From: Kordia sp.
GTDB taxonomy: Bacteria > Bacteroidota > Bacteroidia > Flavobacteriales > Flavobacteriaceae
NCBI RefSeq assembly: GCF_022447245.1
Contig: NZ_JAKVBC010000004.1
Coordinates: forward strand, 1-64,000
Reading direction: 5' to 3'
DNA: 64,000 bases
Position numbers and translations under genes: made by a program. Shown here piece by piece: positions 25,464 through 54,310 of the stretch; the stretch's first letter is position 1; the number at the start of each line of letters is the position of its first letter. The notes beneath the pieces were generated by a model. That model saw nothing but the letters and a program-made list of their open reading frames with translations, was not told the DNA's origin and ran no database searches.

Positions 25464-25499
25464 CTTTGGGGAATAATTATGGAAAGTTATTCCCCAAAG
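25464..25499 (+). terminator. Terminator hairpin after the serine hydrolase gene
   Basis: CTTTGGGGAATAA (25464-25476) pairs perfectly over 13 bp with TTATTCCCCAAAG (25487-25499), starting 2 bp after the stop codon. The loop is 10 nt. No long T-run follows. Confidence 0.65.
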
Positions 25500-25504
25500 A
25501 ATCT

Positions 25505-25686
25505 AAGAGCATGTTTAAATTTTCTACTGCCTGAAAACCAAAGTTTTGAGAACTTTGGCGTCCGATTGGATCAGTTATTTAGCTCGCTAAACGCCTTCAC
25601 AAATCGTTAGCCAAAACCCTACCTTGACTGGTAGGCAAGCTCAAATCGTTGATTATCAGTTTGAATAAAATTTAAACACACTCTTA
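25505..25686. repeat. Dispersed repeat family B, copy B2 (intact termini)
   Basis: This is a 182-bp element with 19-bp terminal inverted repeats: AAGAGCATGTTTAAATTTT (25505-25523) and AAAATTTAAACACACTCTT (25668-25686), 17 of 19 complementary. The interior has short hairpins such as CAAAGTT/AACTTTG and shares ordered blocks with copy B1 at 2529. It has no coding capacity, so it resembles a MITE. It ends 19 bp before the helicase start codon. Confidence 0.8.
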
Positions 25687-25705
25687 ATTTCAGAAGTGGA
25701 AATAT

Positions 25706-31900: not shown

Positions 31901-33178
31901 AGATGGATTTGTAACAACTAAAGTTGTAGGAATTTCAATTCTACCATTTTTAGAGTAGATGGTTGAATCTGGATTAGTATAGGTGACCATTGAGGTGGGG
32001 CCCTGTGCAATAGAATCATTATAAAATATCCAATCCCATGCTACAGCATCAGGAGAAGTAGCTTCAAAGTTGATATCAAATGGATCAGAACAACTATAGT
32101 TAGGGTCAGAGACGAAAGATGGATCAGGATCGTCTACAAAAATGGTAATGGTGGTATCTCCTGTACAAGAACCATCAGTTGTTATTACTGAAAGGCTAAC
32201 TTCTTGTGGTCCAGGTATTCTAAATCGAACAGAAGGAGAAGAAGTTGTACTTGTAGAAGGAGAAGAAGTTTCCCCAAAATTCCAGTTGTAGAAGCCATTG
32301 TCTGAAAGGTTAGTAATAGTTACTAATTCATCCAAACAAACCGTATCAGGAATATTGAAATTAGCTAATGGTTCTCCAATAGATACATCCTGTGTGAAAG
32401 TTACGGCACAACCATTTTCGTCTGTTGCTGTAAGACTGATTGGGAAATTACCATCTGAATCATAGTTTTGTGCTGGTGGATTAATACCTGCGAAGGTATT
32501 GCCATTTCCAAAGTCCCACTCATAAGTCACGGACAGGTCACTGTCAGTGGTATTGTTGATCGTAACGTTTAAAGGAGGAACGCAGGCCGATGGCGGACTA
32601 GGATTAGTTGTAAACATAGTATTTGGACCATCACTTACGTCAATAAGATTAGTTTCAATGATTATTGAATTTGAATTACAACTTTCAATGCTTGATATGA
32701 TTTGAAGGGAAACATTATAAACTCCCCCTTCCTGATAGGTATAAGCTGGATTCTCTTCTTCTACAGAACCACCATCACCAAAAGTCCAGTTGTAAGCTAT
32801 TATATCTAGCCCATCAGGAATAATGGAATTATTAGTAAAGTTTACTAAGAAAGGTGCGCAGCCTATTGTGGTATCTGCTTCAAAGCTCAGGATGGGCGTT
32901 TCGAAAACAGTTATGGTAATGGTACCTATAATAGGTCCACCTTGACTTTCACTAAAAGATACATCATAGGTTCCTGCTTCTGTAAAAGTCGTAGAAGCAT
33001 TTTCCAGCACAGAAGTGCCACCATTATCAAAATCCCAGAAGTAAGTGGATGAACCCGTAGGCGGTGTAAAAGTTACAAATAGAGGTGCACAACCTTGTGT
33101 TTCTGAGGCAGTTTGGCCATGTAATAGGTTAAAAAAGCTAAAACTAAGCGCAAAAGAGAGGAGCAGAGCAATTCTCAT
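28982..33178 (-). CDS. Giant PKD-repeat protein with T9SS/gliding-motility C-terminal domain
   Basis: This is a 1398-residue exported protein if translated from the ATG at 33178 (MRIALLLSF); an in-frame GTG at 33211 would add 11 residues before the signal peptide. After the signal peptide (ending LLHGQ) come about a dozen PKD-like immunoglobulin domains, recognised by recurring WDFGDG-type turns (for example YNWTFGDGG, YEWDFGNGN, VSWDFGDM, YIWDFGDGA, FDWDFGND). The last 100 residues contain VPNVFTPNGDSRNDFF and FNRWGQLVYDN, the type B T9SS sorting tail (TIGR04131-like). The product should be exported through the type IX secretion system as a long adhesin-like surface or matrix protein. PorX (8072-9625) is the expected pathway regulator. 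Confidence 0.9.
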   Translation of the reverse strand: MRIALLLSFALSFSFFNLLHGQTASETQGCAPLFVTFTPPTGSSTYFWDFDNGGTSVLENASTTFTEAGTYDVSFSESQGGPIIGTITITVFETPILSFEADTTIGCAPFLVNFTNNSIIPDGLDIIAYNWTFGDGGSVEEENPAYTYQEGGVYNVSLQIISSIESCNSNSIIIETNLIDVSDGPNTMFTTNPSPPSACVPPLNVTINNTTDSDLSVTYEWDFGNGNTFAGINPPAQNYDSDGNFPISLTATDENGCAVTFTQDVSIGEPLANFNIPDTVCLDELVTITNLSDNGFYNWNFGETSSPSTSTTSSPSVRFRIPGPQEVSLSVITTDGSCTGDTTITIFVDDPDPSFVSDPNYSCSDPFDINFEATSPDAVAWDWIFYNDSIAQGPTSMVTYTNPDSTIYSKNGRIEIPTTLVVTNPSGCRDTLIRFDTIYQPNALYMPDVIDGCAPLTVTFADSSDSREEIILWEFDYGDGTMDTFTNDDDHTHTYTEPGVYETVLNIQNEAGCVDTSYVLLIEVGGPIDVSFNGPGPLEICPGDTVTLESMVNPDDLEDVDAYHFETDNGRSFHCFQEDSLSWIFDTETGAMDVSLTLEYNGCQTVITEEDYITVNGPIARIDYLIECESPYDVMFRDSSYDATSVSWDFGDMTTSMNNDETHTYLERGDYTVILTAENAGSGCPASMDTALVCIREVIADIELDTILCRGQEYQLIAGGSQDVHADCWKGYEWDFEISGRPITTQDDTIPFNFPTSGDEIIQLVVEDINGCTDTTTLDATVYGVDASFIQSDTSICLNGTVPVDFIDTSVGDTTIVTWSWSFGSDEQNPSNIFTGDFMDTIRFTLVASDVFGCPGTVEGFVRVYQPFSAIIAEPFPANICIGEEVDFLATDFTGGGSFLNFEWDFGNETVATGSPVMATYNETGTYNVLMTFTEDVSGCSGQRTTEVNVQEPPNIDFTFDGENDPIICGPGQINFFGNVESEFPVTYNWNASNGETGFTEDVELAFDLGTFDVDFIVSTIPSGCADTITKQITLVGPQGDFELSDEVICDGDIITFTLVDTSDVSSYIWDFGDGAIEENITPIDHQYIVDASGLRTVVLTIRGADDACESAISKTIDITKVVADFTSESGDFEICVNSEVNLVNTSVDANEFDWDFGNDETSSVGNPTIVYDAEGVYTVSLLATDTESGCNDETMRDIFVNSTPIFGYEVDTICKRDTFPLEIDEDIIDLTPEELMGYTFQWNVISPSSATISDDTLATPEVVAVTDEDIELSVTITDPTGCTGDILVTVPVFPLTECIDVAVPNVFTPNGDSRNDFFNYVTNGIPEDGDVTVIELKIFNRWGQLVYDNNDPLNGWDGQYNGNPAPSDVYVYKMLLLIGTETRNITFESKGDVSLVR

Positions 33179-33222
33179 AAATTGGAATTTTTTAAGCAAA
33201 TTAATCTTCACAGCTTCAAGCC

Positions 33223-33258
33223 TTTAAGTCTTGGGAAAAGAGCTTTCCAAGACTTAAA
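33223..33258. promoter_or_regulatory. Perfect 12-bp stem in the divergent region between PKD protein and protease homologue
   Basis: TTTAAGTCTTGG (33223-33234) and CCAAGACTTAAA (33247-33258) form a perfect inverted repeat with a 12-nt loop that can extend the pairing (GAAAA/TTTC). It lies about 45 bp before the PKD-protein ATG, in a divergent intergenic region, so it is not a terminator by position. It may be a leader hairpin or an operator. Confidence 0.45.
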
Positions 33259-33386
33259 AGTTGGAACTTATAAATTCGTCTTTCGGTTGCTATTTTCCAT
33301 AAAAAAAGTAGGAGTAGCAGAAATTATTTATTGAAATATATATATTGCAATATAAATAGTTATTTCATTGTTTACCAACAAAAGTT

Positions 33387-34193
33387 ATGAAAACAATAAT
33401 CGCTACCATTTTTTCTTTATTGTTTGTTTGCTCGATTGCTTTTGCTCAGCCTTACCATACTAAGCAAGCTCCTTTGCCATGCCTTAATAAGAAGGTAAGT
33501 GTCGTAGCGCATATTGTTCGAGATTCTTTTGGAAATACCGGGATTACAGAGGAAGAAATACTTGCTGTAATGGATACCACAAATAGCTTTTTTTCGCCCA
33601 TTTGTTTATCATTCGAAATTTGTGAATTTAGAATGATTGATAACTTCCAATATGATTCACTCATGTCTGAAAATCATTGGGAAGAGATGCAAGTAAAATA
33701 TCATCAAAATAATCGGTTTAATTTATTCTTCGTGACAGATATTATATATCTTCCTTTTGACTGTGGCTATGCGGATATTGGTGGGATACAAGATGTTACT
33801 GCCTTAGGTGCCTTAGTTAAAAAAGAGTGTGTCTTTGAAGATACTAAATGGATTGCCCATGAAATAGGTGCCTATATGGGATTGTTCAATACTTTCGAAG
33901 GGAATGGCATTGAGCTCGTAAATGGCGATAACTGTGAAACAGATGGCGATCAAATCTGTGATACGCCCTCAGATCCTTACGTCTTAGGAGAAGCCATCAT
34001 TCCTTCTTATTTATCGCCTCAAGATTCCTGTCGTTTTATCAGTACGAAGACAGATGCCAACGGAGAATTTTATAAACCTCATGTAGCCAATGTTATGTCC
34101 CAATATCCAAGCTATTGCGCTTGTGGATTTACGTATGAGCAACTGCTCAAAATGGCAAATAACTATCTTGAGGCAGAGGATAAAATGTGGTAA
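33387..34193 (+). CDS. Secreted M43 (pappalysin-like) metalloprotease homologue lacking zinc ligands
   Basis: This 268-residue protein has a signal peptide (1-20, ending SIAFA). The region around residue 157 reads AHEIGAYMGLFNTFEG, followed by CETDGDQICDTPSDP and the Met-turn segment VANVMSQY (M237). This is collinear with M43B pappalysin-type proteases, whose zinc site is HExxHxxGxxH. Here the first His and Glu (H158, E159) are kept, but the second His is A162 and the third is N168. Classical zinc hydrolysis should therefore be lost, leaving a pseudo-enzyme, perhaps a binding or inhibitory protein. Nine cysteines from residue 32 onward would allow disulfides in the exported form. Its 3' end is duplicated at 39374-39520. 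Confidence 0.75.
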   Translation: MKTIIATIFSLLFVCSIAFAQPYHTKQAPLPCLNKKVSVVAHIVRDSFGNTGITEEEILAVMDTTNSFFSPICLSFEICEFRMIDNFQYDSLMSENHWEEMQVKYHQNNRFNLFFVTDIIYLPFDCGYADIGGIQDVTALGALVKKECVFEDTKWIAHEIGAYMGLFNTFEGNGIELVNGDNCETDGDQICDTPSDPYVLGEAIIPSYLSPQDSCRFISTKTDANGEFYKPHVANVMSQYPSYCACGFTYEQLLKMANNYLEAEDKMW

Positions 34194-34211
34194 TCACCAC
34201 CTAGCACCTTA

Positions 34212-35753
34212 CTATTGTCTTCCTGTTTTGTTTTCTTTATAAAATTTGTTCTCTAACGAATTTAAGGCCATTTCCCAGAGGGTTTCATAGGGAATGATTT
34301 CTACTTCGTGTGGTTGATTAGCAACTTCTAGCGGGACTTCACTCAGCTGTTTGGTGTATTTCTTTGCTTTTCTTGTTACGGCAGCCTTGTGGAAGCTACA
34401 AGAAGGGATAAGTAGTAATAATTTGATAAAACAGTTGCTTCGGAAAGAATCATCTTTTCGGAGATATCTATAGCAATATTTGTCTACGGCCTCAATACGA
34501 TCAATAGCGTCATTGTATCTCTTTTGGAGGATGAGGAAGAGGACTTGCACAATGAGAATTGGAATATTTCTACGTCTTTTTTCTTTGGAGAAAGAGGTGA
34601 CTTCATTCAGGAAGCGGCCTAGTTTAAACTTATTAAAACGATTATCGTCTCTTCTAGGTTTAACATTTCCGAGAATGACTAAATAATGGACATAGGCTTC
34701 ATTAATTTTCCATGTTTCCACTATACTTTTAGGTTGGAATTTTAGTAGTTTATGGTTGATAACCTGATCGAAAACTTCATAAGCTTCTTGATATTTTTGG
34801 GTATGCAGACAAAGAATAAAAAATAACTCTAAGTTTTTGAACCAGTTGAATTTACCTTCCTGTATAATACTGTTGCTCCTCATAGCAGCATCTCTTCCTG
34901 CTTCATACTCTTTGAGTTGTGTGTAACAAATGAGCTTTTGATTGAGAAATGTTTGTAAAGCCAATACTGAGACATAACTTTTACCTTCAAAAAAATCTAT
35001 TGCGTCGTCGCATGCCTTGACTGTATTTACGTAATCATTGATACTCATATATATGGCCATGTGAATTAGACGGCCACAAAGGTGAATTTTGTAGGTATCA
35101 AACTCATCCATGATGGGCTTTAGTTCCTCGTAATAAGCTTTGGCTGTTTCGTGAATTTCTTGTTTAGAGAAATTGGCCCTGTGGTAAAGGCTAATGAGTC
35201 GACAGTATAATTCTTCACTTTTACCTACTGCTAGCCACATTTGTGTATAATATTGAAAGCGTTCGTTATATAGCTCAAAGTTCTTTTCATCTCTTTCAAT
35301 CGTAGCAGCATTACTGCGAAGCAAGCGAAATATTTCAACTAATAAATCGGTAAATTCGTACTTGACGGCAGGAGAAAGAATATTTTTACATAGCTCATTA
35401 GCGGATACCTTTGCAGATTTGCCTGTAAGTATTTTTACCGCTGCCCATTCTTTCCAGCAATGGTAATATGCCTTTTGTTGATCATTGTAATAAGGTTGTT
35501 TGAGATCGATAAAAAATACTGTATTAATCAATCGCTTCTTGAGGGTGTTTTTTAAATTTCTATAAGCGGAAGACTTTTCATCTTGATTGAAAAAATGAGT
35601 TGCTGCTTCTTGGTCTGACTTGAATTGACCAGCAAGGACACCTTCATATAACTGATTTACTTTGGTGTCCTTATTATATTGATTGCCAATCACTTCTATT
35701 TGGCGGACTTTATTTTTATTGATGATCGTTACTAGTTCTTGTAGTATTCGCAT
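34212..35753 (-). CDS. Unrecognised ~513-residue helical protein, paralogue 1
   Basis: I do not recognise a named family. The 513 residues have no signal peptide or membrane segment and appear all-helical, with Tyr/Lys/Leu-rich stretches reminiscent of tetratricopeptide-type solenoids. It is homologous end to end with the 515-residue protein at 39542-41089. The N-terminus (LQELVTIINKNKVRQIEVIG), a block SSAYRNLKNTLKKRLINTVF (about 61-80), and above all the last ~115 residues (from IPILIVQVLFLILQKRYN to NKFYKENKTGRQ) are shared, while the middle has drifted. It ends 18 bp from the convergent protease homologue, and the pair's junction was duplicated together. Confidence 0.6.
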   Translation of the reverse strand: MRILQELVTIINKNKVRQIEVIGNQYNKDTKVNQLYEGVLAGQFKSDQEAATHFFNQDEKSSAYRNLKNTLKKRLINTVFFIDLKQPYYNDQQKAYYHCWKEWAAVKILTGKSAKVSANELCKNILSPAVKYEFTDLLVEIFRLLRSNAATIERDEKNFELYNERFQYYTQMWLAVGKSEELYCRLISLYHRANFSKQEIHETAKAYYEELKPIMDEFDTYKIHLCGRLIHMAIYMSINDYVNTVKACDDAIDFFEGKSYVSVLALQTFLNQKLICYTQLKEYEAGRDAAMRSNSIIQEGKFNWFKNLELFFILCLHTQKYQEAYEVFDQVINHKLLKFQPKSIVETWKINEAYVHYLVILGNVKPRRDDNRFNKFKLGRFLNEVTSFSKEKRRRNIPILIVQVLFLILQKRYNDAIDRIEAVDKYCYRYLRKDDSFRSNCFIKLLLLIPSCSFHKAAVTRKAKKYTKQLSEVPLEVANQPHEVEIIPYETLWEMALNSLENKFYKENKTGRQ

Positions 35754-36405
35754 ACCGTTAATTTTTACTTCGTTAGCGACGAATAGATCTGAAAATAAAA
35801 GTTCTTCTTAGTCAAATTTTGCGTGTTCATGCAAAGCTATCGTCTAAACTTAATTACGAATAAGTACTTCTCTCGGGCGATGTGTAAGCTTATGTTTAAA
35901 TGCGTAATTATAATTTATTTTGCTGAAGTGAATCAGGAAAGTAAAGTAATGAGTTGTTAAGCTTCCGTTTAAGTCTTAAGGCTGTAGTGTAATTACTCTC
36001 AATGAAAGTACTAATGCAATGAATAAATATTGGTTTAAAGTTGAATGTGCTGTAGAACTAGTTTGCTAAAGAGTAGCGAATGTTTGAAGGGCAGTGATCA
36101 TTTTACTTCGCAGTTGCTCATTAGCTATTCGATATCATACAAATTTAAATAAGTATTCAACAAAGTCAAGTAAATACTTTGTTTTTTGATCGGTCCAACC
36201 ATTTTCCTCTTTGAAAAAAGAATGCCTATATTTTAGTATAAGGTAGTCATTTAAAATATTGATTTTCAATAATTTATTGATTTGGAATCGAAGGTAGTAT
36301 GGATAACAGTAATTGTCGGTATAAGTCTAGCTGTCTGAGGAATTGGAGCGAAATGCATGCAAGTTTGTAGCATAAGAATGAACAAACTTAAAATCAAGAA
36401 TCATT
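35754..36405. other. Long AT-rich divergent intergenic region
   Basis: The region separates the helical-protein gene from the beta-barrel gene. I see no repeat-family copy, no structured RNA and no reading frame worth calling. Its length is unusual for this window and matches the equally long upstream region of the paralogue (41090-42265), although the two do not align visibly. Confidence 0.4.
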
Positions 36406-38817
36406 ATGCGTTTGAATTATTGCATAACAGGTACCCTATGCCTGTTACTGAACATTTTCGTGCATTCTATATCATTCGGGCAGGATGCAAAAGCGTATCG
36501 CTTTATCATTCAAGATGAAACAGAAAGCCCCGTCCCAAATGCGACAGTACAAGTCTTTGAGGGAGAAGATTTGTGGATGGCGGGTTATACCGATACATTA
36601 GGTGTTTTCTCTTTTGAAAAAGGTAAAACGGATCAAATCCAAGTTGAAATTAGTTATCTAGGATATGAAATTTGGAAGAGTCCTTATGATTTATCAAAAG
36701 AATCAAATGATATTAAAGTCCAACTGATTCCTGATGCTAAATGGATTGATTTAGTAACAGTAAAAGCAGATCGAAAGATCATCAAGCAAGAAGCAGACCG
36801 CCTAGTACTACAGATAGATGGTAAAAATACCCTTGGGAATAATGCTATTGAGATTTTGGAAAATGCACCTGGCGTTTTAGTGCAAGAAAACGATATTTCC
36901 TATCTTGGGAAAGGTGTAAAAATATTGATCGATGGTCGTCCCACTAAATTAAGTCCAACCCAGATTGGTAATTATCTGAATAAAAAAGGGGCTTATGCCA
37001 TTAAACGAATTGAGTTAATTGCAGATCCAGGTGCTGCTCAGGATGCATCCTTCGATGGCCGAGTGATAAATATCATTACGCAAAGACGTGAAGGGGACGG
37101 TTATACAGCAGGCCTATCCACGACAGCTATACAACGCTCTGAGTTTCTTTCTGGAACAAGCGGTGTGGATTTTCATATGCAATATGGAAACCTTAGTCTT
37201 TTTGCGGATGCTGGTTATTATAATGATCGTCGTACAGAAAGATCTATTAATAATAGAGCCATTGATTTTGATAGTGGAAATACCGAAATCAATGAATCCA
37301 GTAAGGTACGCCCAGAAGGCACTGGTTACAATTATACTGTAGGGGTGGATTATGATCTGCATCCTAAATCTATCTTGGGTTTTAAATATGTCGGTTCTCA
37401 AGATGAAGCCAATCGATCACTTCGAGGTTTATCCAATATTTTTAATAATGGACAATTAGATTCATTGGTAAGTATTGATGATGAAACGACTGGAGATTAT
37501 TCATCTAATACTTTTAACTTAAATAATAAAACAATCCTTGACTCTACAGGAGCATTTATCAATCTAGATATTGACTATGATATTATTGATAATACTTCTG
37601 CTAGTGATCAAATCTTTAATACACTGAATACCAGCATGGAACCTTTGCATGCGCCAGATAAACGGTTCCAAGACATTGGAAGTCGAAACCGCTTATTTGG
37701 TGTAAAGCTAGATTATCAAAAGAAGTTTACAACTTGGAAGATAGATGCTGGTTTGAAATACTCACAATCGAATATTGACCAGACTTTAAATCAACTGTTT
37801 GACAATGGAACCAATACACTGAGTTTATTAGATACACTCAATTATCGAGAGGATATCTATGCAGCTTATGTAGATATTAGAGGAAAGAGCAAGTTTTTTA
37901 ATTATCGAGTGAGTCTTCGTTCTGAATTAACAGATTACGAGGGTAGTGCTAGCAGCCTTTTTGCTTCCATTGGCGATCGATATTTGAATGTTTTTCCAAG
38001 TGTATTTTTGGCGAAAAGCCTAAGTGAAAAGCATTATGTGGTATTGGCTTACCAAAAGAAAATTAGACGTCCTCGATTTGGACAATTGATTCCATTTAGA
38101 AGATATACTAGTGCATTCTTTTATTATGTGGGGAATCCTCAATTACAACCGTTTTTCCCGCATAGTGTAGAGGCTAGATATTTTTATAATGACAAATACT
38201 TTATTAGTGCACGATACGAAAAAGCCAACAATCGAATCCTAGGTTTTAGCCAAGTTGAATCAAATTCAAATGTAGTAGCAGGAATTAAACAGAATAATGG
38301 AAGCTACGAAAAATTTGTATGGATTGCGGGCTATAATGGAAAGATAAAGAAATGGTTCTCATTGAATGCCAACTTTGTTTATTCCTTTGGAAGTCAATCG
38401 CTTGTAAGCGAAGGTGTAGAGGAAGTGTTTGAATATGATACTTACAATATTTCCTTAAATCCAAGTTTCAAAATCAGTAAGGCTCTACGGGCTAATCTGA
38501 ATTTATATTACAGCTCAAATGTTTATTACGATGTATCTCAGACCTTAAATTACTGGAATTTAGGATTCCGTATTAGCCAGACGGTACTGAAAGGAGCAGC
38601 TTATATTTCGCTTTCAGGCAGTGACCTTTTCCTGAAGAATATCACAAGAAGAAAAGCAGATTATACAAACATCTCTTCTTATGTCGAAAATAACTGGGAT
38701 AGTCGCATTTTCCGTCTGTCATTCTCTTATAATTTTGGACAAGACGATGTACGTAAACAAAGAAAAAGAGCTAAAACGGCTAATAATGATGTGCGTCGTA
38801 GAGTAGGGGGTAATTAG
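36406..38817 (+). CDS. Outer-membrane beta-barrel protein with CarboxypepD_reg-like N-terminus (TonB-dependent receptor-like)
   Basis: This 803-residue protein has a signal peptide (about 1-25, ending SISFGQ). A carboxypeptidase-regulatory-like beta sandwich follows (about 30-112), then a plug-like region with NNAIEILENAPGVLVQ and IKRIELIADPGAAQDAS (about 140-215). The C-terminal two-thirds is a beta-barrel rich in alternating aromatic strands and ends in a strand with RLSFSYNFGQ shortly before a basic tail. The order matches the Bacteroidota outer membrane beta-barrel family proteins related to TonB-dependent receptors. No SusD-like partner is adjacent, so glycan uptake is not indicated; the ligand is unknown. 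Confidence 0.8.
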   Translation: MRLNYCITGTLCLLLNIFVHSISFGQDAKAYRFIIQDETESPVPNATVQVFEGEDLWMAGYTDTLGVFSFEKGKTDQIQVEISYLGYEIWKSPYDLSKESNDIKVQLIPDAKWIDLVTVKADRKIIKQEADRLVLQIDGKNTLGNNAIEILENAPGVLVQENDISYLGKGVKILIDGRPTKLSPTQIGNYLNKKGAYAIKRIELIADPGAAQDASFDGRVINIITQRREGDGYTAGLSTTAIQRSEFLSGTSGVDFHMQYGNLSLFADAGYYNDRRTERSINNRAIDFDSGNTEINESSKVRPEGTGYNYTVGVDYDLHPKSILGFKYVGSQDEANRSLRGLSNIFNNGQLDSLVSIDDETTGDYSSNTFNLNNKTILDSTGAFINLDIDYDIIDNTSASDQIFNTLNTSMEPLHAPDKRFQDIGSRNRLFGVKLDYQKKFTTWKIDAGLKYSQSNIDQTLNQLFDNGTNTLSLLDTLNYREDIYAAYVDIRGKSKFFNYRVSLRSELTDYEGSASSLFASIGDRYLNVFPSVFLAKSLSEKHYVVLAYQKKIRRPRFGQLIPFRRYTSAFFYYVGNPQLQPFFPHSVEARYFYNDKYFISARYEKANNRILGFSQVESNSNVVAGIKQNNGSYEKFVWIAGYNGKIKKWFSLNANFVYSFGSQSLVSEGVEEVFEYDTYNISLNPSFKISKALRANLNLYYSSNVYYDVSQTLNYWNLGFRISQTVLKGAAYISLSGSDLFLKNITRRKADYTNISSYVENNWDSRIFRLSFSYNFGQDDVRKQRKRAKTANNDVRRRVGGN

Positions 38818-39111
38818 GATATCCTCAAAAAAAGAAGCTATTGATTGCAAGATATTGGCAGTTTGTTGGGTGAGTGTTGAAAGGTTTTATCCTTACCAGC
38901 TGCGAATAACCTAAAGAATCACATTGGGGTAATCGTCTTTCTAAAACTACCTTACCTTATTGTCTGTAGGGATGATCAAGAAAACATTCTGCGAATAGCG
39001 CAGTCTTAATTTAGCAAGTCTATAGCTACTTTAATTGCATCCTCTTTTTTTACCCCTAGAATGTATTAAATATCAGTATTTTTATTCCCATATCTATTGG
39101 AAACTTCCGCA

Positions 39112-39259
39112 TAAGCGGCTAGTCAAAATTGCTTGTATAATAAAATTGTTTGCTTAGAAATTATAAGTAGCTGACTACATGGAAGCTACGCATGATTGGC
39201 TGAATTTTATTATGCCAATTCCAGCCTGCTGGCAGACATGGTCTCGGGCAAACTACTTA
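39112..39259 (+). repeat. Dispersed structured repeat family A, copy A2
   Basis: This 148-bp copy runs from TAAGCGGCTAG to CTACTTA. It keeps the outer arms (ATAATAAAATTG and GAATTTTATTAT) and an inner stem GTAGCT/AGCTAC (39167-39172 with 39184-39189). In copy A1 the inner stem is GTAACT/AGTTAC, so a G-C pair here replaces an A-T pair there. Part of the right middle section is deleted. Confidence 0.75.
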
Positions 39260-39373
39260 ATATATAACCCTTCATTTAATCTTGAAATTTTCGTTTTACG
39301 TCAACTCCAACAACCTAATAGGCCCGATGGATGAATTGTGCTTTATTATCAGCAATTTTGAAGATTCATCAAT

Positions 39374-39520
39374 ATGAAAGTGGATGCCAATGGAGAATTT
39401 TATAAACCTCATGTAGCCAATGTTATGTCTCAATATCCAAGCTATCCCGCTTGTAGATTTACGTATGAGCAACTGCTCAAAATGGCAAATAGCTACTTTG
39501 AGACGGAGGATAAAATGTGA
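39374..39520 (+). pseudogene. Duplicated 3' fragment of the M43 protease homologue
   Basis: About 49 codons correspond to residues 222-268 of the protein at 33387-34193, from DANGEFYKPHVANVMSQY to the stop. By eye there are about 11 differences over some 148 nt. Here the terminal Trp codon is TGA, and one conserved Cys is Pro. Weak similarity can be followed a further 30-40 bp upstream and then stops, so the catalytic region and signal peptide are absent. The fragment is convergent with the second helical-protein gene exactly as in the parental locus. Confidence 0.8.
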
Positions 39521-39541
39521 TAATCACCACCTAGCACCTTA

Positions 39542-41089
39542 CTATTGTCTTCCTGTTTTCCTTTCTTTATAAAATTTGTTTTCTAACGAATTTAAGGCCA
39601 TTTCCCAGAGGATTTCATAGGGAATAATTTCTACTTCGTGTGGTTGATTAGCAACTTCTAAAGGCGTTTTCTTCAGCTGAGTTAAGTACTTCATTGCTTT
39701 TCTTTCAATGGCTGCTTTGTGAAAGCTAGAACTTGGAATAAGTAATAACATTTTAATAAAGCAGTTACTCCTAAACGTATCATTTCTTCTGAGGTATCGA
39801 TAGCAATATTTATCAATCGCTTCAATTCTATCGATCGCATGATTATATCTTTTTTGGAGGATCAAGAAGAGAATTTGAATAATAAGGATTGGGATATTGT
39901 ATTTTCTTTTATCCTTTGATAATGAAGGTACCTCATTGATAAACTTACCTAGTTTAAATTTGCTTAATGCCATCTCATCATTTACAGTTGGAATTTTCTT
40001 TAGTTTGATGAGATAATGAATATAAGCCTCATAAATTTTCCATGATTCTTTGACACTATTAGGTTGATATTTAAGGAATTTATGGTTTTTTGCTAGTTGA
40101 AAATATTGATAGGCTTTATTAAATTTTTTACTGTGAACTGCTAAAATAAATATCAGTTCAATAGTCTTAAACCAATTGTATTTATCTTCTTTTGATATCA
40201 AGTCTAAACAACGCTTTGCTATTCGTTCACCATTATCGTATTGTTTCAGCTGTGTGTGGCAAACAAGCTGTTGGTGATAAAATACCAACATTGGTGTTCG
40301 TGCTACATACTCCTTGCTTTCAAAAAAACGGATAGCTCTTTTACAAACTTGAATGGTAGAGTGATAATCATTGATACTCATGTAAATGAAAATCCGGATC
40401 ATATTGCCAAACAAGTGTAGTTTTTGAGAGCAATAATTTTCCATATAATCTTTTATTTGCCTGTAGCTTTCCTTGGCAAAAAGATGTATTTCTTCTTTTT
40501 TGGCGTTTTTATTGGTGTATTTCGCAACTAGTTTTAAGTAATACTCATTGGCTTCATCTTCTGTATTCAGGATTTCATTGTATTTTTTGAATAAGCAATT
40601 GTAATGATCAAATAACTCTGGTTTTTGACTAAAATGGCTGTAATGTTTGCGAAGGAAGCGAAGGATGTCTACAGATAAATCTGTAAACTCATAGTAAATA
40701 GATTGTTGTAAAATCTTTTCAGCAATTTCTAAGGGGGCCAATCTAGCTGCTTTTCCAATTAGAATTTTGGCTGCAGCCCAATTTTTCCAACAATTTAAAT
40801 AAGCTTTTTGGTTTTCGTTAAATTGACTTTGACTAACATCGATAAAAAAGACTGTATTGAGCAATCTATTTTTTAAAGTGTTTTTGAGGTTTCTAAAGCT
40901 AGAGGAAGTTGCAGGTTTATTAAAAAAATAAATAGCAGCATCTTCTTCAGATTCAAATTCGTTATAAGCTATTTTTTCGTATAGCTCTTGTATTTTGGTA
41001 GCATTCTCTGCCGCAGTTTGTCCAATAATTTCAATTTGGCGTGTTTTATTTTTAGTTATTATAGCAATTAGCTCTTGGAGTACTTTCAT
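39542..41089 (-). CDS. Unrecognised ~515-residue helical protein, paralogue 2
   Basis: This cytoplasmic, all-helical protein of unknown function is the second copy of the family at 34212-35753. Both begin with a Leu-Gln-Glu-Leu helix followed by NKxRQIEVIG/NKTRQIEIIG, share an RNLKNTLK(K/N)RL(I/L)NTVFFID block, and have nearly the same last ~115 residues ending KTGRQ. The central 300 residues have diverged much more, with many substitutions but almost no length change. The region around its stop codon is nearly identical at DNA level to the first locus. The upstream gap is long (over 1.1 kb). No enzymatic motif is visible. Confidence 0.6.
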   Translation of the reverse strand: MKVLQELIAIITKNKTRQIEIIGQTAAENATKIQELYEKIAYNEFESEEDAAIYFFNKPATSSSFRNLKNTLKNRLLNTVFFIDVSQSQFNENQKAYLNCWKNWAAAKILIGKAARLAPLEIAEKILQQSIYYEFTDLSVDILRFLRKHYSHFSQKPELFDHYNCLFKKYNEILNTEDEANEYYLKLVAKYTNKNAKKEEIHLFAKESYRQIKDYMENYCSQKLHLFGNMIRIFIYMSINDYHSTIQVCKRAIRFFESKEYVARTPMLVFYHQQLVCHTQLKQYDNGERIAKRCLDLISKEDKYNWFKTIELIFILAVHSKKFNKAYQYFQLAKNHKFLKYQPNSVKESWKIYEAYIHYLIKLKKIPTVNDEMALSKFKLGKFINEVPSLSKDKRKYNIPILIIQILFLILQKRYNHAIDRIEAIDKYCYRYLRRNDTFRSNCFIKMLLLIPSSSFHKAAIERKAMKYLTQLKKTPLEVANQPHEVEIIPYEILWEMALNSLENKFYKERKTGRQ

Positions 41090-42265
41090 AGCCTGTTTAG
41101 TTTTCCTTTAATAAATAGATATATATTCATTTTCTTATTGAGCAGGACATCATCCTAACGCATAAAAAATGAGAAGTAGTTTACTTCGTTGAGATTTCAA
41201 ATCAAAAGGTATATTTCAACTTGTAAATAACTGAAGGACAGTCCGTGTAGAACAAATTAATTCGCGTGTATATTAATACTCTCCTTAGTAAAAGATATGG
41301 AGTTAGAGGTGAATATCTTAGATTGATATTTTCTTTAATATTTGTGTCCAATATAATGCTTACTCAAAATGAAAGCAAGTTTCAATAGTCTTATTTAGAA
41401 TATTATGTACTTAAGTTTATGATAATCAATATTTTGTATAGGTTGATTGAAATTGAGTAGATGTCAAACTGGCAATCTTTGTCTACAACTTAGTCATTTG
41501 AATAGATGAAATTTGAAACATAATATTTCTTTCATGACTTAACCTTTATTACGTATAACAGCCTTTTTATCCCTAGGAATTATTAGCTCTCCAGAGGATA
41601 TGGATAATTTAACTCCTGAACAATCTAAGCAGGTTGCGATTGTTATTGTAGATTACGGCATACCTTGATTTTGTTTAGTTGTTATTAGGTTAAAATATTG
41701 ATTTATAAGTACTTGTGTTTTTACTTGTTTTTTTATTGTAAAATTAGTTCTTGTCACTTTTAGCTTTTTTGTCAAAATTATTGCTGCTTTAAACTATTAA
41801 CTTGTGACTGTATTTAGAGAGAAAATGGTTATTGAAAACATGACCATAGCAAAATACTAACAGTTTTTCGATTGCTACTCACAATTTAGAGCGCATTATT
41901 TGATTTTCCAGAATGGAAATAATCCGATAATTTCTCTAACAATACAAAGTCTTTCAATAGTTGCAAGTCCAATTTATCAGCTAAATATTACCTTAAGAAG
42001 TCTGTTAAATTAAAGCTGGATTACAGTATTCTGACGGAATTTGAGGATTGCTACTTATTTTACAAGTAGAAGTGTAGTGAGAGATTATAACAGTATTTGG
42101 ATAGGATATCCTAATTTGAAAAATGATTTGTACCATAGTTTAAAGCTTAATTTTTATTCATTAAATCTATACAGTTTTACAAACATTTATGGTATTGCAT
42201 CAGTGCAAAGAAGATATCAAAGTGTAAATAATCAAGTTCAGTTTATCAATTTGAATAACATAAAT
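41090..42265. other. 1.2-kb AT-rich intergenic region
   Basis: No supported gene lies here. A 41-codon stop-free stretch near 41545-41668 lacks a convincing start. No tRNA, repeat-family copy or inverted repeat of note was seen. An upstream extension of the lipoprotein frame from a TTG at 42041 crosses part of this region but lacks coding character. Confidence 0.4.
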
Positions 42266-43225
42266 ATGCCTTTTAAGAAAAAGCAGTTTGGAATGAGCTT
42301 AAGTACAAGATTGATCTTATTATTAATAGTAATTAGTTGTTCATCTGAAACAATGTCGCAGCAAACAGCATATTATCCACCTCATAAAGCAAGTGTTTCA
42401 AAAGCTGATTTTGAGCATGGTACGAAAGTCTTGAAAAATACTTACAGTAGGATTAAGCGAAGAAACGGTCGAATACAATGTATAGATTATTGGAATATTG
42501 CAGTAGGTTATACCTATTTGCAAGAAAATAAGGATACTATTAGAGGTTTAATATTGCGTAGTTACCAAAAAAATCCGGAACTATTCTTAATGGCGTTAAA
42601 TCCAGAATCTAATGCTATTAATCTGTGGCGAGATATATTGCCAAAAGAAGAGTTTTCTTCATTATTTGGTAGTGTAGATGCTGAAAATTACAGACTCTAT
42701 CATGGTGCTGAACAGAAAACAGCTGAAGAGGGGATTAGCCAAAATGCTTTGATTCAAGGGCAGCCAAAAACCGTTCAAAAAAAGAAGTATCAATATGATG
42801 AGGAGCTGAAACAATTGATGAAAAAAATCGATGCAGCAGATCAAGCAGTCAGAGGAGATTGGGATAATCCTGATCTAGAGCAAATGAGGATAGTTGATGA
42901 ACGCAATTTGAAGACCATTGATTCATTATACAATATTTATCAAACCTATATCGGAAAGACGATGGTAGGGGATGATTATGAACATGTAATGTGGTTAGTG
43001 ATACAGCACGCGGATCTTGCTACAATGGAAAGATATCTGCCAGTCTTACATACTGCCATTCAAGAAGATGAGTTGTCTGTAGGAGCTTTTAAGATGACTT
43101 TAGATAGAATTTATGCTATTAAATTTAATTACCAAATTTATGGTTCACAATATGCAGTTCCCGCAATTCCAATTGCACCTGATCATATTGTAAAAGAAGT
43201 AAAGCAGAAATATCAATTAGATTAA
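42266..43225 (+). CDS. Probable lipoprotein with a DUF6624-like domain
   Basis: I start this at the ATG at 42266 (319 residues), because the residues just after it (LSTRLILLLIVISC) make a lipoprotein signal with the cysteine in VISC. Translation from the TTG at 42041 would bury this signal 75 residues deep. The C-terminal part (about 190-319) shows RIVDERNLKTIDSLYNIYQ, a MWLVIQHADLATMERYLPVL block and YQIYGSQY, the pattern of DUF6624 proteins, whose function is unknown. The mature protein would be anchored in the outer or inner membrane. Repeat copy A3 begins 2 bp after the stop codon. Confidence 0.6.
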   Translation: MPFKKKQFGMSLSTRLILLLIVISCSSETMSQQTAYYPPHKASVSKADFEHGTKVLKNTYSRIKRRNGRIQCIDYWNIAVGYTYLQENKDTIRGLILRSYQKNPELFLMALNPESNAINLWRDILPKEEFSSLFGSVDAENYRLYHGAEQKTAEEGISQNALIQGQPKTVQKKKYQYDEELKQLMKKIDAADQAVRGDWDNPDLEQMRIVDERNLKTIDSLYNIYQTYIGKTMVGDDYEHVMWLVIQHADLATMERYLPVLHTAIQEDELSVGAFKMTLDRIYAIKFNYQIYGSQYAVPAIPIAPDHIVKEVKQKYQLD

Positions 43226-43227
43226 GG

Positions 43228-43350
43228 TAAGCGGCTAGTCAAAATTGCTTGTATAATAAAATTGTCTCTACGAAAATCATAAGAAACTGACGATAGTAAA
43301 GTTACGCATGATTTTTGTAGGGACGCTAAAACCTGTCTGCTTTCTATGGT
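43228..43350 (+). repeat. Dispersed structured repeat family A, copy A3 (3' part missing)
   Basis: It runs from TAAGCGGCTAG to about 43350. The main hairpin is the best in the family: GTCTCTACGAAAATCAT (43264-43280) pairs over all 17 positions with ATGATTTTTGTAGGGAC (43308-43324), two of them G-T. The inner AACT/AGTT pairing is also kept. The right-hand TTTTATT arm and CTACTTA end are not present. Confidence 0.75.
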
Positions 43351-43547
43351 TAATCCAAGCAAATGTTTAAATTTTTTTCATATATAACTTGATTTCTTAC
43401 GACAGCAAAAACGCGAAGAATGATTTTATTTCTCAAAGCATTGATAACACTCAAGAATGGTTTACCTCAGCTAAAAAATCGTGCTCAATCTTATTATCCT
43501 TAGTTGCTTGGAATTTTTGCACTGACCATCCAGTTACTATGCTTGTT

Positions 43548-44006
43548 TTATTTTTGTAAAAAAATTGCTTTTAAGCAATTCCAGAGAGCGGCAGATTTAA
43601 CTTTTCCCCCTGCTTTACGTTCTTTAAGAATAATGGATAAGTCATCGGCGAATATAAAACGAATATTGTTAAGTAGAAAAGGCTGATATAACTTGATAGA
43701 TATGTTAAGGCCAATTTCTTGCGGCTTGCGCCCAAACACCAATACGTATTTAATACTATTTGAGCAAGTAATCTGAGCGAGTGAAAAGCTTGGTATATTT
43801 TCGGCAGGGAGCCAAAGAGTATCTTGCTCTATATCTATTTTAGCAGCAGCTAGAATTTTAGCTAAAAAAGCTTGTAATTCATTTGCTGAATCTAAAACAT
43901 TATAAGTTATAAAAATACCTTTTGTATTTTTACCTTTTAATTGTGATTTCCACTTTGTGGGTTCTGAAACAGAGAATATTTGAAAATCTCTAAAGCTAGG
44001 ACTCAA
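43548..44006 (-). CDS. Unrecognised 152-residue protein with an uncertain start
   Basis: I do not recognise the family. The protein is soluble, with alternating strands and helices, including FSLAQITCSNSIKYVLVFG (about 73-91) and a C-terminal GGKVKSAALWNCLKAIFL helix. The layout faintly recalls small accessory subunits with a Rossmann-like core, but I cannot name one. The frame opens at TTG (44004-44006), with a stop five codons upstream and no ATG. An ATG at 44029 lies in another frame and hits a stop after eight codons, which would be explained by a one-base frameshift. The 5' end may therefore be damaged or wrongly read. Confidence 0.45.
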   Translation of the reverse strand: MSPSFRDFQIFSVSEPTKWKSQLKGKNTKGIFITYNVLDSANELQAFLAKILAAAKIDIEQDTLWLPAENIPSFSLAQITCSNSIKYVLVFGRKPQEIGLNISIKLYQPFLLNNIRFIFADDLSIILKERKAGGKVKSAALWNCLKAIFLQK

Positions 44007-44123
44007 AATAAAATAATTTTATAAGGCATTTCAGCCAAATTATAGTTTAAAAAAAATGACTTATATTAACCAATATAAAATTTATTTATTATTTCGTGAA
44101 TAAATCATTAAATTTTCTTGCCT

Positions 44124-45206
44124 ATGAAATATAATATCACAGTAAGTAAGACCGAAGCTTCTCGACTTTCTTCGGTTGACTTCGACAACATTCCTTTCGG
44201 GAGAGTATTCTCTGACCACATGTTTGTGGCAGACTACCAAGACGGAGAATGGCAAGATTTAAGAATTGTTCCTTTCGGGAATTTTGAGATGCATCCAGCA
44301 GCCATGGTATTGCACTATGGTCAAGCTATTTTTGAAGGCATGAAAGCTTCCAAGACAGTTGATGGTAAGGCAATGCTTCTACGTCCTGAAATGCATGCCA
44401 AAAGGATTAATGCATCAGCTGCACGAATGTGTATGCCAGCTGTACCTGAAGATTTATTTTTAGAGGCCTTACATGCACTAATTGATTTAGACCAAGCTTG
44501 GATTCCACCACAGCTAGGGAGTGCGTTATATATCCGTCCATATATGTTTGCTACGGATGAATTCATTGGTGTCAAACCTTCACAGAGGTATAAGTTTATC
44601 ATTTTTACTGGCCCTGTAGGCCCATATTATCCTAAGCCTGTTAGTTTAATTGCAGAGCAAAAATATGTTAGAGCAGTCAATGGCGGTACTGGTGAAGCAA
44701 AAGCAGCGGGTAATTATGCTGGTTCATTGCTTCCTGCAAAAATCGCTAATGAAAAAGGATATGATCAGGTAATGTGGATGGATGGCAGTGAATTTAAGTA
44801 CATTCAGGAAGTAGGTACCATGAATATCTTTTTTGTAATTGATGGCAAAGTAATTACTCCAGCTACAGATGGGGCGATACTGAAAGGAATTACAAGAGAT
44901 TCTATTTTAAATATTCTTAAGGATAAAGGATACCAAATAGAAGAACGTCCACTAGCAATTGATGAAGTAGTAAAGGCCCATGAAGCGGGGAAATTGGAAG
45001 AAGTTTTTGGTTCAGGTACCGCAGCAGTAATTGCTCATGTAGCAAAAATTGCTTACCAGGATAAGGAGATGGTACTTCCACCAATGGAGGAAAGAAAAAT
45101 AGGTGCTATGATTAAGGAAGAGATTGATGGATTAAGAGCTGGCACAATTGAAGATGAAAGAGGATGGGTTGTAGCTGTGCAATCAGATATTTTAGTAAAT
45201 ATATAA
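44124..45206 (+). CDS. ilvE: Branched-chain amino-acid aminotransferase
   Basis: This PLP-dependent enzyme performs the last step of valine, leucine and isoleucine synthesis and the first step of their degradation. I start at the ATG at 44124 (MKYNITVSK, 360 residues); an in-frame TTG lies two codons upstream. Family features include HYGQAIFEGMKA (about 72-83), the RPEMHAKRI substrate segment, the PLP lysine in GEAKAAGNYAGS (about 190-201), and QEVGTMNIFFV. The length matches the 350-370-residue class of BCATs common in Bacteroidota. It is monocistronic with a clean terminator. Confidence 0.95.
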   Translation: MKYNITVSKTEASRLSSVDFDNIPFGRVFSDHMFVADYQDGEWQDLRIVPFGNFEMHPAAMVLHYGQAIFEGMKASKTVDGKAMLLRPEMHAKRINASAARMCMPAVPEDLFLEALHALIDLDQAWIPPQLGSALYIRPYMFATDEFIGVKPSQRYKFIIFTGPVGPYYPKPVSLIAEQKYVRAVNGGTGEAKAAGNYAGSLLPAKIANEKGYDQVMWMDGSEFKYIQEVGTMNIFFVIDGKVITPATDGAILKGITRDSILNILKDKGYQIEERPLAIDEVVKAHEAGKLEEVFGSGTAAVIAHVAKIAYQDKEMVLPPMEERKIGAMIKEEIDGLRAGTIEDERGWVVAVQSDILVNI

Positions 45207-45210
45207 AAGA

Positions 45211-45242
45211 AAAAGAGGCTGATCTGTAGATGAGCCTCTTTT
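45211..45242. terminator. Rho-independent terminator of ilvE (bidirectional)
   Basis: AAAAGAGGCT (45211-45220) pairs with AGCCTCTTTT (45233-45242) around a 12-nt loop, followed by further T-rich sequence. It lies between ilvE and the convergent gene at 45253 and can serve both. Confidence 0.85.
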
Positions 45243-45252
45243 ATTTTATTTC

Positions 45253-45879
45253 TTAACGTGAAAATTTCTTCTTTAATTTTCCGTCTTTAGAAGTCCATTC
45301 TGGTAAAGCATATGAAAATCCACGCCCTTCATATCTTAGTTTGAGGATATCTCCTCGGCGATTAGCTAATTTGTGGATACTTCGGTTCAATTTGATTTTA
45401 AAATCATCAAGATCAAATTTTTCACCTTTTGTTTTAGCATCCTCTTCTGCCAAATATATAATTTCAGCAGCGATTAATGGCTTTTGAAAATGGTTTAGTT
45501 GCCCCATGACGAAATTATCCGTTTCTGACAATTTGTATCCTCTTCTCTGGCTGCTGGATTGCAAAATGCTTTTCTTTTTATCTGAGCGATTCTCATTTTC
45601 GGAAGGGCGTCCTTTTTTTCTTTTTTTTGTTCCTTCAGTAATAACTTCTGCATTCGAATCTGTTCCAGATTTATGATTTTCTGTTCCTTTTGTGGTAGAA
45701 GTAATAGAAACGATTGGTGCATCTGGAATATCAAATACTGGTTTTTGATTGAGTTCAGATTGTAATTCCTGAATGGTTTTCTGAGTTTTCTGTAATTGAT
45801 AACTCAATTTTCTGACTTCGGAGTAATACCTACCAATTAACTCTTGAAGTTCAGATCGGCTTAAACTTAACTTGTTCAT
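45253..45879 (-). CDS. Coiled-coil protein with a probable winged-helix C-terminus
   Basis: This 208-residue protein is in three parts. Residues 1-48 form a coiled coil with leucine heptads (LSRSELQELIGRYYSEVRKL onward). A polar, basic low-complexity linker (about 50-115, with KKRKKGRPSENENRSDKKK) looks like an AT-hook-like or flexible nucleic-acid contact. The C-terminal part (about 120-208) resembles a winged helix, with SIHKLANRRGDILKLRYEGRG as recognition helix and wing. A dimeric DNA-binding protein is the natural reading, but I know of no characterised homologue. It precedes a second DNA-binding-type gene on the same strand. Confidence 0.5.
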   Translation of the reverse strand: MNKLSLSRSELQELIGRYYSEVRKLSYQLQKTQKTIQELQSELNQKPVFDIPDAPIVSITSTTKGTENHKSGTDSNAEVITEGTKKRKKGRPSENENRSDKKKSILQSSSQRRGYKLSETDNFVMGQLNHFQKPLIAAEIIYLAEEDAKTKGEKFDLDDFKIKLNRSIHKLANRRGDILKLRYEGRGFSYALPEWTSKDGKLKKKFSR

Positions 45880-46027
45880 TTAACTCTCAAAATTTTGTTA
45901 TTGAATCACTACCAAAAATCAAAGCATTTAAATTCAAATTTGGTCTTTATTTTCGGGCAGTTTTTACGCTGAGAGTTTTAGGTGTAACTTAATGTGATTG
46001 ACTGATTAAAGAGAATACTGGTGAATT

Positions 46028-46627
46028 CTAGGAAGCTGCTTCCACTTCTGCCCAGTTCTCTTGTCTTTCGATTCTTTTAATTTGTGTGACACTTACATTG
46101 AATTTTTTCGCAATAATTTTGGTCTTTGTCTTGTTATTCTTCAGCCATTTTTTGATAATGGCTACTTTAGTTTCTGTAAGTTTATTATTAGTTATAGGTT
46201 TAGGTTTATCCTTTGGTATTAATCCATGCCTTTTCTTATATTCTACTCTACCCTCCAAGTGATGTTTCCATTCTTTTTCAGTAGCCCATATTAGATTAGA
46301 GGTTCTGTTATCTAAGGTATCATGATTTTTGTGTAAAATGTAAGTATGTTTTTCTGAGGGCTTACGGACAAAATTTTCTGCTATGGCTTTGTGTATGAAT
46401 AAGGATTGGTATCCTTCCACTAGTCTAATATTAATAGACTTGTAGCCTCGTCTTCCGAGACTTCCTTTCAATTCCATTTCAGTATTTATTTTCCTATTAA
46501 AAGCTTTCGCTCTGCCATAGGTACTTACATAATAATCTTTTTGCTTGGTTGGCCCTTTCAGTATTACTTTGACCCATATTTCTCCTGCCTTATCTTCGAC
46601 AAGTTTTACTTGCTTAGCCTTACTCAT
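46028..46627 (-). CDS. NUMOD4/HNH-like protein, possible free-standing homing-endonuclease relative
   Basis: This 199-residue protein begins with a NUMOD4-type motif (EIWVKVILKG, then DYYVSTYGRAKAFN, about 15-55). An HNH-like segment follows, YILHKNHDTLDNRTSNLIWAT (about 95-115), preceded by FIHKAIAENFV. The C-terminal ~50 residues form a helix-turn-helix (LTETKVAIIKKWL then KKFNVSVTQIKRIE). The arrangement is that of phage- or intron-type HNH endonucleases, but it is chromosomal and not inside an interrupted gene here. Whether it still cuts DNA or now only binds it cannot be told. It is basic throughout. Confidence 0.65.
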   Translation of the reverse strand: MSKAKQVKLVEDKAGEIWVKVILKGPTKQKDYYVSTYGRAKAFNRKINTEMELKGSLGRRGYKSINIRLVEGYQSLFIHKAIAENFVRKPSEKHTYILHKNHDTLDNRTSNLIWATEKEWKHHLEGRVEYKKRHGLIPKDKPKPITNNKLTETKVAIIKKWLKNNKTKTKIIAKKFNVSVTQIKRIERQENWAEVEAAS

Positions 46628-47130
46628 TTGTTCAGTTTTAATGATGTATCATTTTTCCTATTTTCTGCTAATAGACAGAATAATGGAACAAACTAGCAAT
46701 AGCTTTGTTTTCAAAAATAAAATTTTAAAAAATGAAGTATAGGTTTTGAAGCGTTTTGCAAATATAATAAATCATTACATTTATCAAATATAAATTAATA
46801 AAATATTGCCAACGGAAGCGCATAAAAACAATTTACAGCTTTTTAAAGAAAAAAACAAGTCTTTCGCAATGGCACATAAGTCATGGATTCATAAAGAAAT
46901 ACATAGTATTGCTTATTTCTAGTTATAAGAAATTCGTACAATATTAGTTTGCCTTAAATTATTCAAAAAAAACGTCTGCTATCAAACTGATATTACATCA
47001 TCTACAAAAAGAATTTCTTTTGAAAATTAGATTTATTCCTAAATTTTAAATAGATGTAATTCTATTACCTAAAATTAGCAGTGTATTTGAGTCATAATTT
47101 CGAAAAATTGGCAACCCATATATAAGTTAA
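46628..47130. other. AT-rich intergenic region
   Basis: No supported gene or RNA was found between the HNH-like gene and repeat copy A4. The sequence is very AT-rich with several A and T runs, as in other long gaps of this window. Confidence 0.4.
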
Positions 47131-47293
47131 TGAGCGGCTAGTCAAAATTACTAGTATCATAAAATGGTCAGTTGGAAAATCATGTGGAACTGACGATAGT
47201 AAAGTTAAGCATGATTTTTGAGGGGACGCTAAAATTTGTCTGCCTAGGGCTGAATTTTATTACACCAATTTTCTGACCTAACTCCCTAACTTA
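47131..47293 (+). repeat. Dispersed structured repeat family A, copy A4
   Basis: This 163-bp copy runs from TGAGCGGCTAG to CTAACTTA, about 30 bp before the next start codon. The hairpin arms are 47167-47183 and 47211-47227 (AAAATCAT/ATGATTTT kept; the outer part is partly unpaired). The outer arm GAATTTTATTA is present on the right. It has drifted more than A1 and A3. Confidence 0.7.
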
Positions 47294-47321
47294 TTCTTCT
47301 CAAATAAGTTAGCTTTGCAAC

Positions 47322-54240: not shown

Positions 54241-54310
54241 GCGGCTAGTGAAAATTGCTTGTATGAAAAATTTCAGCCATAGGCAGACAGGTTCTAGCCT
54301 AACTACTTAA
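54238..54310 (+). repeat. Dispersed structured repeat family A, copy A5 (internally deleted)
   Basis: This 73-bp copy starts TAAGCGGCTAGTGAAAATTG and ends CTAACTACTTAA. The central hairpin is missing; a short CAGCCATAGGCAGACAGG segment of the right part remains. Its first three bases serve as the stop codon of the membrane-protein gene. Confidence 0.7.

Follow-up and report, generated by a model that had tools for sequence, protein, structure and literature searches.

Six dispersed copies of a short hairpin repeat, lying on a contig filed under Kordia sp., have arms that appear to change together from copy to copy, which raises the question of whether the pairing is selected and what kind of element would require it. 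The window (the whole 64,000-nt stretch analysed) comprises positions 1 to 64000 of contig C34 (235 kb) of assembly G000 (5.24 Mb). All six copies of the repeat, termed Family A, are present where the original prediction had placed them, with mutual matches far above chance (E = 6e-26 for A1/A3 and 1e-28 for A3/A4). Most of the copy limits held, with corrections at the ends of A3 (recognisable to 43340), A4 and A5 (Table 1). The reported inner-stem change, GTAACT/AGTTAC versus GTAGCT/AGCTAC, is present as quoted, as is the arm change CAATAAAA/TTTTATTG versus TAATAAAA/TTTTATTA. The 17-nt stem, said to stay paired through several changes, pairs throughout in A3, counting G-U pairs, whereas its arms as read show 2 mismatches in A1 and 3 in A4.

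Table 1. Family A copies in the 64,000-nt window and hairpin landmarks of copy A1.
Feature	Position	Strand	Description	Folding or search result
A1	3745–3923	+	full length, 179 nt; TA at each end; nested hairpin	single-copy folding z −3.9
A1 hairpin core	3781–3841	+	arms 3781–3797/3825–3841	ungapped alignment, pair counts
A1 inner stem	3801–3805/3817–3821	+	apical loop 3806–3816, 11 nt	ungapped alignment, pair counts
A2	39112–39259	+	148 nt; TA at each end; internal deletion, 3′ part of hairpin	single-copy folding z −2.4
A3	43228–43340	+	cut short or misjoined in the window, at 43340	single-copy folding z −3.8
A4	47131–47288	+	start TGAG; 3′ end decayed (~47288)	single-copy folding z −1.7
A5	54238–54309	+	short form, 72 nt	weak: R2 26.2 bits, E 0.005; R1 33.4 bits, E 0.0006
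A6	58176–58226	−	shortest form, 51 nt; both ends, without central hairpin	weak: R2 27.7 bits, E 0.002; R1 16.8 bits, E 0.64
A7	43435–43549	−	decayed copy, absent from the original prediction	BLAST E 3.5e-5; R2 26.5 bits, E 0.004

Two covariance models each recover A1 to A4 in the window: R1, for which 66 copies were used, A1, A3 and A4 among them, and R2, for which 22 elements were drawn from all five genomes described below, with the window copies left out. Rfam gave zero matches at gathering score in the whole window, and for five other loci together with window positions 39000–47400 it returned only matches to miRNA models, far under the gathering score; a promoter and terminator scan of the A2 region gave nothing exceeding shuffles. 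The window also holds other features. A NUMOD4/HNH endonuclease gene (46028–46627) lies ~500 nt from A4. Positions 34035–34334 and 39365–39664 (300 nt) are 92% identical and overlap the ends of two ~515-aa ORFs (34212–35753 and 39542–41089, the latter without a Pfam match). A second repeat pair, 2519–2701 and 25496–25691, is 76–82% alike, its second copy palindromic; the ends of this pair, of the form AAGAGCATGTTTAAATTT, resemble by eye the ends of an IS5-like insertion sequence (IS) in L174.

The window copies most likely belong to a different organism from that named on the assembly. The part of the window compared (32495–64000) is ~100% identical overall to the MAG JAKVCU (Saprospiraceae ALOHA_ZT_62; hereafter G464): 32495–43340 is ~99.97% identical to JAKVCU010000126, and 43369–64000, continuing to C34:66963, is identical to G464 contig C194 save 7 differences. 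A2 with identical flanks is also present in JAKVCU010000126, where the A3 locus (L077) is a full 174-nt copy followed by other sequence; 3′ of A3, at 43341–43368, the two assemblies differ, through a strain difference or a misassembly at the repeat. Identity breaks off at C34:66963 (66963–66964, L023:2963–2964) within a tRNA-Leu gene, which is intact in G464 (62.3 bits) and has a mismatched acceptor stem in C34 (51.1 bits). Because the compared part of the window is nearly identical to JAKVCU and this identity ends inside a tRNA gene, the true host of the copies is most likely the JAKVCU species. C34 is probably chimeric between two species, which is the simplest reading of the break, although it may instead record a real recent transfer; the case is a warning that one assembly contig can join the DNA of two species.

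The distribution of copies follows the same boundary. No convincing copy lies beyond the break, the rest of C34 contains none by BLAST or R2, and DNA searches and R1 found no convincing further copy in the rest of G000. Weak G000 matches outside the contig start, in C68 (judged by eye), C9, C78, C24 and C25, were rejected; the C9 and C78 places (L032 and L034) scored E = 3e-5 to 2e-4 against a small database, and R2 matched neither of them. Among relatives of G000, weak BLAST matches in 7 of 148 other genomes (one of them, L012, by eye a terminator-like hairpin) and pattern matches with 2 mismatches in 9 of 396 genomes, against 4 in the reversed control, were taken as chance. Restriction of the copies to the window, which the original prediction had named as speaking against its own reading, is thus literally true for its own assembly, but C34:32495–66963 matches a copy-rich MAG. 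A pattern scan of public genomes gave at least 118 stretches, and all matches listed are from this MAG.

G464 contains 287 5′ ends of the family (156 + 131) at up to 3 mismatches, against 0 for the reversed pattern; of 59 relatives searched alongside, 3 had one 3-mismatch match each, taken as chance. The 863 kb around the matches hold 170 5′ ends, 132 3′ ends, 107 hairpin apices and 100 complete copies of 49–200 nt, with lengths clustering at 72–77, 138–139, 157–159, 177–180 and 198 nt. The typical element of the family is ~138 nt, short, multi-copy, dispersed and without coding capacity. No autonomous long copy was found among the 170 5′ ends read (of ~287), 36 of which lie at stretch or contig edges, and just 4 others have no 3′ end. 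Recent movement is indicated by near-identical copies: the nearest copy is ≥97% alike for 16 of 24 G464 copies of 130–145 nt (2 of 44 in the longer class, 3 of 20 in the shorter) and for 23 of 35 copies in the related genome G549, with low median flank likeness (61% and 53%, respectively). The arms of 45 of 92 distinct G464 copies could be classed on both sides, 24 being matched and 21 mosaic. The apex is inverted in one of the 77 complete copies with an apex (L097) and likewise in an incomplete copy (L046). Another dispersed repeat of this MAG lies around L145:7659–7763 (TACACTGTAATTTAAGTT...), with relatives in L069, L097, L054 and L176.

A covariance-model search of related genomes, as the original prediction had proposed, recovered the same architecture in quite different sequence. 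R1, run with stricter filters and 13 candidates scored per genome, picked up related elements in 4 of the 297 additional genomes searched as relatives of G464 (G650, G559, G465 and G549), and R2, at E ≤0.001 with 150 candidates scored per genome, counted at least 43 copies in G549, 45 in G465, 83 in G559 and 64 in G650. In these four genomes 97 copies were read, most of them 134–145 nt long. From the ends inwards, the element consists of a foot, outer stems, a 3′-side bulge, a ~17-pair stem, an internal loop, a 6-bp stem and an apical loop. By eye, the foot TAAG/CTTA is kept across genomes (TWAG/CTWA in G549), the bulge of 5–6 nt is kept in all five, the small internal loop has TAA on its left side in most lineages, and the apical loop of ~11 nt begins with GA in most. 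The terminal arms vary by subfamily and still pair (GCTAAA/TTTAGC, CCTAA/TTAGG, GGCGGA/TCTGCC, GGTCGGA/TCTGACC, GACGGA/TCCGTC). Searches of plasmids with one copy each of G464, G549, G465 and G559, of phages with one G464 copy, and of viral contigs for exact matches to three family patterns gave no match. The apparently chimeric window contig and the 5′ ends at sequence edges are what an assembly or contamination artefact could produce; such an origin is nonetheless extremely improbable, given that the copies occur in five genomes, one of which is a single 7.5-Mb contig from which 35 copies with different flanks were read.

Use of TA as the target, suggested originally by the element ends, is borne out by neighbouring copies, empty sites and duplications. 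TA starts and ends 87 of 100 complete G464 copies, and 13 of 15 facing neighbour pairs <60 nt apart share exactly two bases, TA; the G650 list adds two further two-base overlaps, again between copies on the same strand. At the two G464 empty sites the target is a single TA and the filled site has two, one insertion being nested in a family copy and the other in an L145-type repeat; a third nested case was seen by eye in G650 (L304:10582). The flanks of 70 isolated G464 copies show a weak symmetric preference, CT|TA|AG. The duplication in G549 is 3 bp, TWA, in 26 of 35 copies (TAA/TAA 16, TTA/TTA 10); of the remainder, one is TAA/TTA and eight are unequal in that register, 4 of the 6 TGAG-type copies among these matching by eye with the left triplet one base earlier. 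End dinucleotides are equal in 22 of 23 copies in G650, 21 of 26 in G559 and 8 of 13 in G465, where (in G650, for most copies) the terminal TA also lies within the paired foot and by itself does not prove duplication. TA is the target used by Correia elements. The ends of Family A are inverted repeats, with 86.9% of cells paired in the TAAG/CTTA foot and 81.8% in the first outer stem. The elements are thus short (<~500 nt), non-coding, multi-copy and dispersed, with inverted termini and target duplication, as in MITEs. The mode of spread is MITE-like transposition with insertion at TA, or at TWA in one genome, since copies are intergenic, insert with target duplication, nest in one another and share TA where they abut.

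Of the 13 TA-sharing pairs, 12 are head-to-tail and one is tail-to-tail (p 0.003), an excess unexpected under random insertion at a symmetric TA. This orientation, the strand-specific fold described below and left flanks biased towards the nucleotides found at the 3′ end of the element could reflect single-stranded DNA transposition by a Y1 HUH enzyme of the IS200/IS605 or RAYT-REP type reading the plus-strand hairpin. Y1 HUH enzymes are not known to duplicate their target, and insertion of that kind is not what G549 displays. Furthermore, the flanks show a weak preference that is symmetric around TA, and no more than 24 of 36 G549 copies have their plus strand on the strand of positive skew (p 0.07, not significant; tallied by hand with switch points at 2.2 and 5.9 Mb and three copies in unsampled gaps), so we regard Y1 HUH transposition as improbable.

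The original prediction held that the pairing is selected, and covariation across the five genomes agrees, being far above controls with shuffled columns (500 shuffles) and slid structures. For the 22 elements of the five genomes (53 pairs), two-sided cells number 174 versus 67.6 ± 7.1 shuffled, the covariation score is 0.403 versus 0.186 ± 0.011 (slid structures ≤0.146), pairs with two-sided change number 31 versus 24.7 (2/500 shuffles) and further pair types 79 versus 75.1 (63/500); RNAalifold predicts 26 pairs, 19 of them with two-sided changes. For 90 distinct elements, in an alignment fitted to the covariance model, two-sided cells rise to 1037 versus 335 ± 18.3, a count that, like the others here, exceeds the number of independent events because copies share descent, and the score to 0.564 versus 0.193 ± 0.006 (slid ≤0.113); two weaker measures give 43 versus 39.6 pairs with two-sided change (12/500 shuffles) and 131 versus 125.9 further pair types (38/500). 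The signal within G464 is smaller: 66 copies (22 pairs) have a score of 0.235 versus 0.157 ± 0.007, 95 versus 42.3 two-sided cells and 10 versus 8.1 pairs with two-sided change (74 of 500 shuffles reach 10), and 92 distinct copies have 1081 Watson-Crick cells versus 987 ± 13 permuted. RNAalifold found no consensus structure in the 66-copy alignment of this MAG and the window. What stands of the claim is therefore pairing kept by lineages of the element but not by each inserted copy, because 21 of 45 classable G464 copies are mosaic, RNAalifold gives no consensus and G-T and A-C cells there stand at 25 and 24.

The two strands of the element are not equivalent. By prediction the plus strand folds more stably than its complement in every one of the 97 copies tested outside G464 (G549 35/35, G650 23/23, G559 26/26, G465 13/13), whereas the figure is only 47 of 74 in G464 and 57 of 100 in a symmetric-change control (mean bias −1.4 kcal/mol). 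Of 15 subfamilies, grouped by us, 14 have a median favouring the plus strand. Over the 53 pairs, G-T outnumbers A-C by 267 to 110, with an excess in G650 (66:18), G465 (37:2), G559 (86:56) and G549 (53:10) but not in G464. Relative to column shuffles both are depleted, in the 22 elements (G-T 64 versus 113.5, A-C 39 versus 88.4) and in the 92 G464 copies (160 versus 179 and 83 versus 114), so it is chiefly Watson-Crick pairs that maintain the pairing. G-T is a milder mismatch than A-C in RNA and single-stranded DNA alike, and G-T counts accordingly do not separate the two molecules. Since the plus strand folds better in 97 of 97 copies and G-T outnumbers A-C in four genomes, the modelled folds and pair counts suggest that the single-stranded plus strand, as RNA or DNA, is probably under selection.

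Paired arms could also arise without selection on folding, if the element were a pure DNA palindrome whose arms template one another when the DNA is replicated or recombined. The inverted apices of L097 and L046 are a signature of palindrome rearrangement, the arms come as modules, and the even G-T and A-C counts of G464 fit such copying. Strand-symmetric arm copying should, however, erase one-sided bulges and loops, which are kept in five genomes, and should leave the two strands about as balanced as in the symmetric control. We consider such an origin of the pairing unlikely.

Copies rarely lie within genes: those >90% inside an ORF call number 0 of 78 in G464 (ORFs ≥100 aa, complete copies with enough flank), 4 of 35 in G549 and 0 of 56 in G650, G559 and G465 together. 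Some sit exactly at a stop codon, as at 54238–54240, where the first TAA of A5 is the stop codon of ORF 53809–54240, and likewise in G464, G549, G650, G559 and G465; the element's TAA can act as a stop because a gene entering from either side reads TAAG. The intergenic placement, the positions at stop codons and the plus-strand fold bias are all compatible with a role mainly for the host, in which the copies act in cis as mRNA hairpins (RNase III sites, attenuators or 3′-end protectors, uses that have been reported for Correia elements and considered for BOX elements), the fold being kept by selection at each locus. Between codirectional genes, however, the plus strand runs along both neighbours in 56 of 93 places (p 0.06) and antisense to both in the other 37, divergent places outnumber convergent ones by 40 to 20 across the five genomes, and many G464 copies are mosaic, which makes a primary host role rather unlikely. 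The fold can instead be inferred to serve the mobility of the element, because copies in the host MAG decay and mix, lineages keep the fold, and the codirectional bias toward the plus strand is so slight.

We therefore judge it likely that Family A is a MITE-like transposable element of the Saprospiraceae species and its relatives, with a folded plus strand that probably serves propagation. A transposase acting in trans would insert the non-autonomous element at TA or TWA and duplicate the target; the driver may be a TA/TWA-specific DDE enzyme of the IS630- or IS5-like type, an assignment based on the target sizes of these groups. Subfamilies have changed most stem pairs with pairing retained, and the element probably requires its folded single plus strand, an RNA transcript or single-stranded DNA, in order to propagate, because pairing is kept through the stem changes and the plus strand folds better than the minus strand. 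DDE transposition of double-stranded DNA by itself needs no folded single strand. The six IS630-type loci of G464, several of them interrupted by the end of a contig, yielded no transposase with family-matching ends: family ends are absent from four, while L178 contains one ordinary copy and L179 two weak 3′-end matches, none of them framing the gene. An IS630 copy of G464 inspected as a partner ends, by eye, in AATAATCGACACTT-like repeats, not in family ends, and was rejected. More tentatively, these may be SINE-like or ssDNA-like bacterial elements, shared by several related genomes, whose mobility uses the folded ~138-nt plus strand itself as substrate or signal. Spreading would then select an elaborate covarying fold, unlike in ordinary MITEs, whose pairing consists of inverted repeats only.

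Several known systems share parts of this description. REP and REPIN sequences with RAYT transposases are high-copy extragenic palindromes, from which Family A differs by its ~138-nt length and the duplicated TWA in G549. Integron attC sites keep a fold while their letters vary; most Family A copies, by contrast, stand alone at dispersed sites, insertion is at TA/TWA, and by eye the attC end consensus is absent from them. According to PMC10969869, the Correia elements (CREE/NEMIS) of Neisseria are short, present in >120 copies, intergenic and transcribed as stem-loops, with inversion reported. To that extent Family A resembles them, being short, multi-copy and intergenic with cases of an inverted apex; compared by description only, it differs in that the fold persists from genome to genome although most stem pairs have been replaced. 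In Streptococcus pneumoniae, RUP and BOX are short mobile repeats with a predicted RNA fold, RUP having ends that resemble IS630-Spn1 and BOX being modular (PMC3049150). Family A is like BOX in its modular and shortened forms, unlike RUP in that no IS with family ends was found among the six IS630-type loci of G464, and unlike both in forming one continuous hairpin of 134–145 nt in most copies from four genomes. The MITEs reviewed in these sources match Family A in size, intergenic placement and hairpin transcripts (PMC10969869, PMC3049150).

A literature search that covered the matching literature in part found no earlier description of the family. Hairpins in bacterial MITEs are usually taken as a by-product of inverted repeats; with hundreds of natural copies, the five genomes permit hairpin selection in such an element to be tested directly. 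Collectively, covariation, kept one-sided loops and strand bias make it probable that selection acts on the folded single strand of a mobile element; if so, the spread of a TA/TWA-targeting element would include an RNA or single-stranded DNA step still to be found. That the fold is kept across lineages with differing letters suggests that the fold itself matters for spread.
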